Source: a virus. Taken from it: a stretch of DNA of 21,726 nt. The notes under the pieces were generated by a model. It was not told the origin of the DNA, ran no database searches, and saw only the letters and a program-made list of their open reading frames with translations. This document shows positions 20,090 through 21,726 of this stretch, in pieces; the first letter of the stretch is position 1, and the number at the start of each line of letters is the position of its first letter. The translations under genes were made by a program, and so were the position numbers. The DNA is taken from the IMG/VR virus record IMGVR_UViG_3300020371_000070, positions 1 through 21,726 of that record; one strand, given 5' to 3'.

Positions 20090-20293
20090 TCAAAAAATAC
20101 CAAAGAACAGTTTACCAGTTGCTGCATATGAAATCAAGCCACTGATGATACCCATCATTGCCCAACGTCCATTATAGACCTCGGCAAACTGCTGGGGAGA
20201 ATACAGTCCCTTGCGGTTATAGGATTCTACCACCATTTGGGGCTCTTTGGCAAAGAGATTATTTTGTCCATATTCGTTGGTTGTTACGGTCAT
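20090..20293 (-). CDS. hli: High-light-inducible protein (67 aa)
   Basis: This is a thylakoid one-helix pigment-binding protein that protects photosystem II and D1 during high light. AEVYNGRWAMMGIISGLISY carries the ExxNGRxAM motif and enters the single transmembrane helix; the end is ATGKLFFGIF. The N-terminal 35 residues are polar. AGGAGG four bases before ATG 20293 is the strongest ribosome site in the window. The gene has its own host-type promoter (20321-20349) and leads the run hli, ferredoxin, thioredoxin-like, 50 aa, hli, 40 aa, 120 aa. Confidence 0.97.
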   Translation of the reverse strand: MTVTTNEYGQNNLFAKEPQMVVESYNRKGLYSPQQFAEVYNGRWAMMGIISGLISYAATGKLFFGIF

Positions 20294-20320: not shown

Positions 20321-20349
20321 AGTATATATAAAAAAAGCACCCCTGTCAA
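20321..20349 (-). promoter_or_regulatory. Host-type promoter of the hli-ferredoxin operon, inside a terminator
   Basis: Perfect -35 TTGACA (20344-20349), exactly 17 bp, then TATACT (20321-20326) on the minus strand. The -35 is the loop of the terminator hairpin of the cupin gene. The start would be near 20314, about 20 nt before ATG 20293. Confidence 0.85.
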
Positions 20350-20357
20350 GGGGTGCT
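20330..20357 (-). terminator. Rho-independent terminator of the cupin gene
   Basis: AGCACCCC, loop TTGACA, GGGGTGCT, then six Ts on the minus strand. The stem is 8 perfect base pairs and lies 20 bases after the cupin stop codon. Confidence 0.93.
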
Positions 20358-20376
20358 CTGTAGTAAATTATACCCA

Positions 20377-20850
20377 TTACTCACCAATGTTATGAATCAC
20401 TGGCTTTTCATGAGATAAGATATCATATATTTGTTTATTTTGTGCTGTAGATACAGGAATAAACTCAGTATCAGCATTAAATTCATCGTCTCTAATTGCC
20501 TGATTGATGACAATTGAACCATCTTCACCAGAAATAGAACGATGATATGTGTTGGTTGGGATTACAAGGGCACCAGAGGACCGATTAAGGTGAACAATGT
20601 GATATGGATACTTCCACTCAGGATTAATCAACTCAAAGGTACGGACACCAGAAAGAACACGATTGTTATCAGTCTGGTGACGATGAATATAAAATTGTTT
20701 TGCACCAACAATATCATTAGGAGGGGAGATTGCAGGTCCAGTATGCACTACCAGGTCCGATGCATTTGAATTCTCTACAGAAATGTCGTAGAAAATAACA
20801 GAGTCAGTCTCCCTAAAGACTCGATGTTTTTTGAACTGTACGTTACTCAT
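20377..20850 (-). CDS. Cupin-fold protein (157 aa)
   Basis: A single cupin barrel is likely. HRHQTDNNRVLSGVRTFEL (His56, His58) matches the metal-binding HxH of cupin motif 1, and ALVIPTNTYHRSIS (His103) matches motif 2. Metal and substrate are unknown; enzymatic or sugar-binding roles both occur in the superfamily. ATG 20850 follows directly after the U-run of the pstS terminator and has no SD, so the predicted leader is only about 15 nt. It has its own host-type promoter and its own terminator, and thus forms a single-gene unit between pstS and the hli operon, which suggests early, independent expression. Confidence 0.75.
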   Translation of the reverse strand: MSNVQFKKHRVFRETDSVIFYDISVENSNASDLVVHTGPAISPPNDIVGAKQFYIHRHQTDNNRVLSGVRTFELINPEWKYPYHIVHLNRSSGALVIPTNTYHRSISGEDGSIVINQAIRDDEFNADTEFIPVSTAQNKQIYDILSHEKPVIHNIGE

Positions 20851-20851
20851 T

Positions 20852-20873
20852 AAAAAAGGGGACCGTAGTCCCC
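20852..20873 (-). terminator. Rho-independent terminator of pstS
   Basis: GGGGAC TACG GTCCCC followed by six Ts on the minus strand, 13 bases after the pstS stop codon. The T-run ends one base before the ATG of the cupin gene. Confidence 0.93.
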
Positions 20874-20874
20874 T

Positions 20875-20903
20875 ACTATAAAGACATCACTTGATAGTGT
20901 CAA
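20875..20903 (-). promoter_or_regulatory. Host-type promoter of the cupin gene, inside the pstS 3' end
   Basis: Perfect -35 TTGACA (20898-20903) within the last codons of pstS, exactly 17 bp, then TATAGT (20875-20880). The start is predicted near 20866, in the loop of the pstS terminator, so the new transcript contains only one arm of that hairpin. Confidence 0.8.
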
Positions 20904-21726
20904 CAGCAGCAAGTGCTTTCTGTCGAAGAGACTCTGGAAGAGGTACATATCCCAGAGAATCTGAAATACCTTGCGACTTCTCACTCAACATATAACGAAG
21001 AGTTTCCTTGACTCCAGTTTTAGATTCAGGATAAGCAAGAATCCAAGTCAGAGATACAATTGGGTAAGCATTTGCACCTGCAGGATTAGGATCTGCCCCA
21101 CGAAGTTTATCGTCCAGAACAATTTTTGCAAGTCCAGCAGCAGAAGTTTCTGCATTTGCCTTTACAAAGTTTCCTGCCTTGTTCTGCAGAGCAACCTGTT
21201 GGAACTTACCACCGTTCACGTAACCATAGTTCAGATAACCAATAGCACCTTCAGTGTTCTTGATAGTACCAGCAACACCACTGTTACCTTTGCCACCAAC
21301 ACCTACAGGCCATCGAACTGATTTACCAGTTCCTACAGTCTTCTTCCACTCGGGAGAGAAAGCAGACAAGGAGTTGGTGAATCCTTTGGTGGTGCCACTA
21401 CCATCGGAACGATGCACAGTAACAATCTGCTTGTCAGCACATCCAAATGTGCTCCAGTTAGTAATCTTACCAAGGAAAACATCAGCAAGCTGAGTCTGAG
21501 TCATTTTTGCTTCACAACCAGGATAGTTGTAAGCAGGAACAATGGCACCACCAGTCATGGGGATGTGAACCATCGGCAGTTTCTGCTTAGCATCTGACAC
21601 AGCACCATCAGAGGCACCAAAGTCAACGGTCTTAGCAGTGTACTGACGGACACCAGCACCACTGCCAACTGCTTGATAGTTCACTTGGTTTCCAGTTTCT
21701 TTATTGAAAGATTGGAACCAGGAGTT
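20887..21726 (-). CDS. pstS: Periplasmic phosphate-binding protein, C-terminal part (cut by window edge)
   Basis: This subunit binds phosphate for the PstSCAB transporter; phage copies are known and are linked to the host phosphate-starvation response. The visible 279 codons run off the window at base 21726 in an open frame; GTG 21684 is internal. Family signatures are VNYQAVGSGAGVRQY and DFGASDG near the binding cleft, MVHIPMTGGAIVPAYN, HRSDGSGTTKGFTNSLS, the phosphate-contacting Ser/Gly/Thr loop, and TEGAIGYLNYGYV. The gene ends with its own terminator. The signal peptide and any pho-box lie outside the window. Confidence 0.96.
   Translation of the reverse strand, partial: NSWFQSFNKETGNQVNYQAVGSGAGVRQYTAKTVDFGASDGAVSDAKQKLPMVHIPMTGGAIVPAYNYPGCEAKMTQTQLADVFLGKITNWSTFGCADKQIVTVHRSDGSGTTKGFTNSLSAFSPEWKKTVGTGKSVRWPVGVGGKGNSGVAGTIKNTEGAIGYLNYGYVNGGKFQQVALQNKAGNFVKANAETSAAGLAKIVLDDKLRGADPNPAGANAYPIVSLTWILAYPESKTGVKETLRYMLSEKSQGISDSLGYVPLPESLRQKALAAVDTIK

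Follow-up and report, generated by a model that had tools for sequence, protein, structure and literature searches.

A probable composite terminator-promoter unit at the pstS 3' end of a T4-like cyanophage fragment

The junction between pstS and the next gene in a T4-like cyanophage fragment very probably carries a composite unit, in which an intrinsic transcription terminator and a host sigma70 promoter share the same DNA. The window, i.e., the whole stretch that was analysed (21,726 nt; IMG/VR record IMGVR_UViG_3300020371_000070), contains a second unit of different geometry upstream of hli. The recurrence of such units ahead of unrelated genes suggests a swappable part under selection, not coincidence. 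A sequence-only reading of this DNA had proposed two interlocked units of one repeated design that separates phage auxiliary genes, and this interpretation appears largely right in principle, being partly supported by the comparisons below. Little of the gene control of the abundant marine cyanophages has been mapped; a recurrent, recognisable unit marking transcript ends and starts would make start and stop sites predictable from sequence and would explain how photosynthesis and phosphate genes are shuffled yet separately expressed. The unit may also offer a natural test bed for whether a polymerase that has terminated is re-used at a neighbouring promoter, an effect observed to date in vitro only.

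Signals at the end of pstS

The gene for psbA occupies the left end of the window, with tail-type and small genes to its right, and the last four genes, all on the minus strand, are a petF-like ferredoxin gene, hli, a cupin-labelled ORF and pstS. The features of this region are as follows.

20887..21726, minus strand: pstS, phosphate-binding protein; its 5' end lies outside the window, and the candidate -35 lies within its last codons
20898..20903, minus strand (read 20903-20898): candidate -35 TTGACA, within the pstS codons GCT GTT GAC ACT
20887..20889, minus strand: pstS stop TGA, within the spacer of the promoter and 12 nt ahead of the hairpin
20875..20880, minus strand (read 20880-20875): candidate -10 TATAGT, adjoining the hairpin and found at the same position in pstS relatives
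20857..20874, minus strand: hairpin of the predicted pstS intrinsic terminator, AGGGGAC-TACG-GTCCCCT; 18 nt, 7 bp stem, 4 nt TACG loop
20866..20869, minus strand: predicted transcription start region at the hairpin apex, placed from the -10 position
20852..20857, minus strand: T6 run of the pstS terminator, doubling as 5' leader of the downstream gene
20377..20850, minus strand: cupin-labelled ORF, 157 aa; PHROG 9052 'hemagglutinin'
20334..20359, minus strand: type B unit, a predicted terminator past the cupin-labelled ORF with TTGACA in its loop; 51 non-redundant IMG/VR contexts
20344..20349, minus strand: candidate type B -35 TTGACA, located in the loop of the hairpin
20321..20326, minus strand: candidate type B -10 TATACT, immediately past the T-run
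20090..20293, minus strand: hli, high light inducible protein; PHROG 178, 1.6e-29

The pstS product matches Pfam PF12849 (1.4e-34) and PHROG 5385, phosphate transporter subunit (3e-157). A Pfam search of the cupin-labelled protein returned no matches and its AlphaFold model has a mean pLDDT of 41; 'cupin' is a mere label for the ORF at 20377-20850, a fold that neither Pfam nor the model confirms. Depending on the phage, this protein is named 'hemagglutinin', 'redox protein' or 'dTDP-4-dehydrorhamnose 3,5-epimerase'. At the other end of the window, a PhotoRC-II RNA (RF01717, 80 bits) lies at 436-530 on the minus strand, upstream of psbA.

On the minus strand, the last pstS codons (GCT GTT GAC ACT ATC AAG) and the stop TGA are followed by TGTCTT, the hexamer TATAGT, the arm AGGGGAC, the loop TACG, the arm GTCCCCT, TTTTT, a single A and the ATG. 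This arrangement, designated type A, comprises a promoter-like TTGACA-17-TATAGT with 11/12 matches at exactly the place where the sequence-only reading had put it (minus strand, 20903-20875); only three sites scoring 11/12 occur in the scanned 20 kb, two of which are the window's two units. The hairpin starts at the base directly after the -10, has a computed stability of -13.4 kcal/mol and displays the sequence features of an intrinsic terminator, namely a G+C-rich stem, a short loop and a T-run. The start codon at 20850 is separated from T6 by one A, as had also been noted. With +1 taken as about 7 nt past the -10, the predicted start falls at 20869-20866, which is the loop, as had been proposed, or the last bases at the top of the 5' arm. 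The predicted leader has no GGAG-like or Shine-Dalgarno motif, in line with the sequence-only reading, and its length is 16-19 nt instead of about 15 nt.

In the mechanism proposed for this junction, the complete hairpin of the pstS RNA would fold ahead of the U-run and transcription would stop. Lying 12 nt past the pstS stop, the hairpin is far enough away not to be covered by a terminating ribosome. Host RNA polymerase would bind TTGACA in the last pstS codons together with TATAGT adjoining the hairpin, and would start the next RNA at the hairpin apex. Without the 5' arm, this RNA would retain only the 3' arm and the U-run, so that the terminator could not fold and termination would be escaped; folding computed for an RNA begun at the predicted apex likewise no longer gives the terminator. 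Translation of the downstream gene would then begin from the AUG right past the U-run, without a Shine-Dalgarno site. A unit working in this manner would insulate adjacent genes at no extra DNA cost and would mark joints for gene swapping, as promoter early stem-loops (PeSLs) of T4-type phages do.

The downstream RNA could also arise by termination-coupled reinitiation, in which the host polymerase, having released the pstS RNA, remains bound to the DNA, moves back by about 20 bp and initiates again at the promoter within the same terminator, a process that would tie the output of the next gene to pstS transcription. Bacterial RNA polymerase remains on DNA after intrinsic termination and restarts nearby in vitro, with an efficiency expected to depend on the terminator-promoter distance (PMC6978380; PMC11347151), which is near zero here, and unmodified host polymerase is thought to be used for cyanomyovirus early genes (PMC2984593). 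However, the process is known in vitro only, and compaction or block exchange of units would explain the proximity equally well; we regard reinitiation as possible but rather unlikely.

Two geometries and their enrichment over chance

The unit at 20359-20321, upstream of hli, has the -35 within the hairpin loop and the T-run within the spacer, and presumably drives hli. This type B arrangement is the commonest geometry among cyanomyoviruses; it uses a hairpin of the same kind as type A, with about 30-40 nt separating the unit from the start codon. An IMG/VR search with the hairpin pattern alone (CCCTTGACAGGG N4 T6), the -10 being left unspecified, gave at least 119 loci, and the matches listed collapse to 51 non-redundant downstream contexts that include many unrelated proteins. 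The search pattern itself makes the hairpin cores (CCCTTGACAGGG) nearly identical, and their flanks differ. Among these listed matches, a TATAAT-like hexamer follows at a spacer of 17 bp in 26 of the 51 contexts, at 18 bp in two and at 16 bp in none, and this exact spacing, more than any other single result, indicates that the TTGACA of the loop may work as a -35. Since type B precedes many unrelated ORFs, the units are not confined to auxiliary genes, contrary to the scope first suggested for them.

A GTATAAATNACTACA-like motif stands ahead of the hli type B hairpin regardless of the upstream gene (window about 20360-20376 and IMG/VR loci). It is late-promoter-like and would begin RNA right at the hairpin.

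Chance expectation was assessed in ten cyanomyovirus genomes (Syn9, Bellamy, P-SSM2, S-PM2, S-SM2, P-HM2, S-CAM1, S-RSM4 and two IMG/VR genomes). A strong same-strand promoter is overlapped by 21 of their 206 intrinsic terminators, against 2.4 by circular shift (maximum 8 of 200 shifts), and about 90% of the terminators have no strong promoter. The scan that had been proposed on the basis of the window, TTGACA-17-TATNNT within 60 bp of a terminator, bore out the predicted enrichment, with 9 cases against 1.4 by circular shift (maximum 6 of 500). Counting overlap alone and adding the near-identical TTGAC-18-TATANT, there are 9 against 0.56 expected (maximum 3), and 1 on the opposite strand. From the promoter side, hairpins were found in 36 of the 795 strong promoters, compared with 4.0 in shuffles, and the hairpins with a T-run occupy two positions, with the -35 in the loop (13) or just past the -10 (6). 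The idea of a repeated design thus holds in that the overlaps are enriched, recurrent, strand-matched and precisely spaced; there are two geometries, not one. When the -35 was permuted, type A gave a mean of 0.68 (maximum 6) against 10 observed, and type B 0.91 (maximum 10) against 14. In P-SSP7, a T7-like phage, no terminator-promoter overlap occurs among four terminators, which are too few to inform.

With the type A pattern of TATAAT adjoining a GGGGA..TCCCC T5 hairpin, the -35 being unspecified, IMG/VR yielded 45 distinct units. A -35 with at least 5/6 matches is present in 19 of these 45, a count inflated by pstS homologs that leaves about six independent gene pairs, and in 0/22 with a mirrored -10, which is not a clean control since the mirrored hexamer is equally common at hairpin bases. 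Terminators are A-rich upstream, so that a TATAAT-like hexamer beside a hairpin is not distinctive alone, and the case for type A therefore rests on the -35, the spacing and the codon evidence. The rigid pattern TTGAC N16-18 TATANT N GGGGA N5 TCCCC had no matches because the loop and the offset vary.

In 8/10 type A units, the start codon lies 0-3 nt past the T-run, as compared with 17/178 other terminators (p ~1e-6). The adjacency of AUG and T-run would also suit a hairpin acting mainly on translation or mRNA stability, which would mask the AUG on read-through RNA, leaving only hairpin-started RNA to be translated; in computed folds of read-through RNA, the complete hairpin indeed forms beside the AUG. 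This role as the main one is improbable, given that a stem followed by 6-8 T is a textbook intrinsic terminator and that type B keeps a similar hairpin at its greater distance from the start codon.

In 9/202 terminators, e.g., in S-PM2, S-CAM1, S-RSM4 and IMG_G001, the T-run is fused to the late promoter TATAAATA, against 0.93 for letter permutations (maximum 6).

Gene-swap junctions, pstS codons and stem covariation

Comparison of the window with a related contig (L004) revealed unrelated DNA before the start codon of the cupin-labelled ORF and near-identical DNA after it, and in the contig with the nearest pstS (L084) this gene is joined directly to a type B unit and hli. These comparisons place both window units at swap points. 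The type A unit also occurs at psbD 3' ends, where four different genes come next in Syn9, S-PM2, S-CAM1 and S-RSM4; the S-CAM1 copy past psbD, TATACTAGGGGTCTTCGGACCCCTTTTTTAATG, is a near copy of that in the window. The exact order of pstS, unit and cupin-labelled ORF was seen only in the window and one near-identical contig (L083/L005). The unit was sought upstream of other cupin homologs and was absent there, indicating that it belongs to pstS and not to the cupin-labelled gene. A contig filed under a Lewinella MAG (L504) encodes a pstS with 89% identity to that of the phage, and this bin probably contains phage DNA.

Among distinct pstS loci, type A, type B or neither comes next. On a pstS tree made without the last 33 bases, types A and B are thoroughly mixed, and the well-supported branches require at least 11 changes for type A, a count that recombination within pstS could blur. 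As the type A -35 lies within pstS codons, GTT GAC is expected where the unit is present, and GTTGAC is found in 23/25 type A loci against 5/15 of the remaining Val-Asp pstS loci. Over 11 independent tree pairs, the association between codons and unit gave 6.2 with the prediction and 0.1 against it (median sign-test p 0.03). The stem of the pstS hairpin varies on both sides and yet stays paired, with C-G, T-A, A-T and G-C all occurring at one pair, as counted in pstS homologs by a hand-anchored script.

These data bear on the view that the terminator alone works and that the promoter-like hexamers arise incidentally from A+T-rich terminator flanks and conserved pstS codons. A+T-rich hexamers are frequent at hairpin bases and GTTGAC arises easily from Val-Asp near the pstS C-terminus; such by-products would, however, account poorly for TTGAC at a strict 17 bp spacer, the same-strand bias, the permuted hexamer controls, a codon choice that tracks the unit on the tree and the 51 unrelated type B contexts among the matches listed. 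We consider this explanation even less probable than a mainly translational hairpin. The enrichment of overlaps, the start codon at the T-run and the codon tracking are what a real start-in-terminator design would predict.

It is conceivable, though on the whole doubtful, that cyanomyoviruses take the hairpin apex as the reference point for a family of promoters embedded in terminators (with the start in the loop, the -35 in the loop, or the T-run fused to the late promoter TATAAATA), with polymerase handed from gene to gene and the units acting as standard gene-exchange joints.

Relation to PeSLs and other stacked signals

Sullivan et al. 2010 (PMC3037559) predicted promoters and terminators next to each of the nine phage pstS genes; they report no single regulatory solution and, in the parts of that paper considered here, no promoter-terminator overlap. 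Stacked signals in the small intergenic spaces of T4-like phages are likewise known from RB49 and S-PM2, where early and late promoters overlap (PMC2984593); in that case two promoters are superimposed, whereas the cyanophage units combine a terminator with a promoter.

The closest relatives are the PeSLs, composite promoter-terminator motifs at gene-swap sites of T4-type phages (Arbiol et al. 2010; Comeau et al. 2014; as cited in PMC4503421). In the same secondary account, the cyanophage S-PM2 is without the dense PeSLs found elsewhere (PMC4503421). As far as this account describes PeSLs, the likeness is that of a small element that combines a stem-loop with a sigma70-type early promoter and recurs between unrelated genes at gene-swap junctions. 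The pstS-end unit has such a promoter-like sequence (TTGACA-17-TATAGT, with strict spacing in relatives) and a hairpin adjoining its -10, and the units stand at junctions of changing gene content, as seen from the window and the two contigs compared with it, the A/B exchange on the pstS tree and psbD. To our knowledge, and judging PeSLs from citations of the original papers, a variant in which a terminator hairpin takes this position has not been described.

The geometry of RB49 (NC_005066), by contrast, is found in neither window unit. A hairpin occurs in 19/123 strong promoters of RB49, against 0.6 expected, mostly between the -35 and the -10 or enclosing the -10, in two stereotyped forms and without a T-run. 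In the cyanophage units, hairpin and T-run together make up a full predicted intrinsic terminator, and the hairpin apex coincides with the predicted start in type A and with the -35 in type B. As PeSLs at gene-swap junctions are already known in T4-type phages, the principle is not new; the position of the RB49 hairpins and their missing T-run indicate that the cyanophage units are a geometric variant of it.
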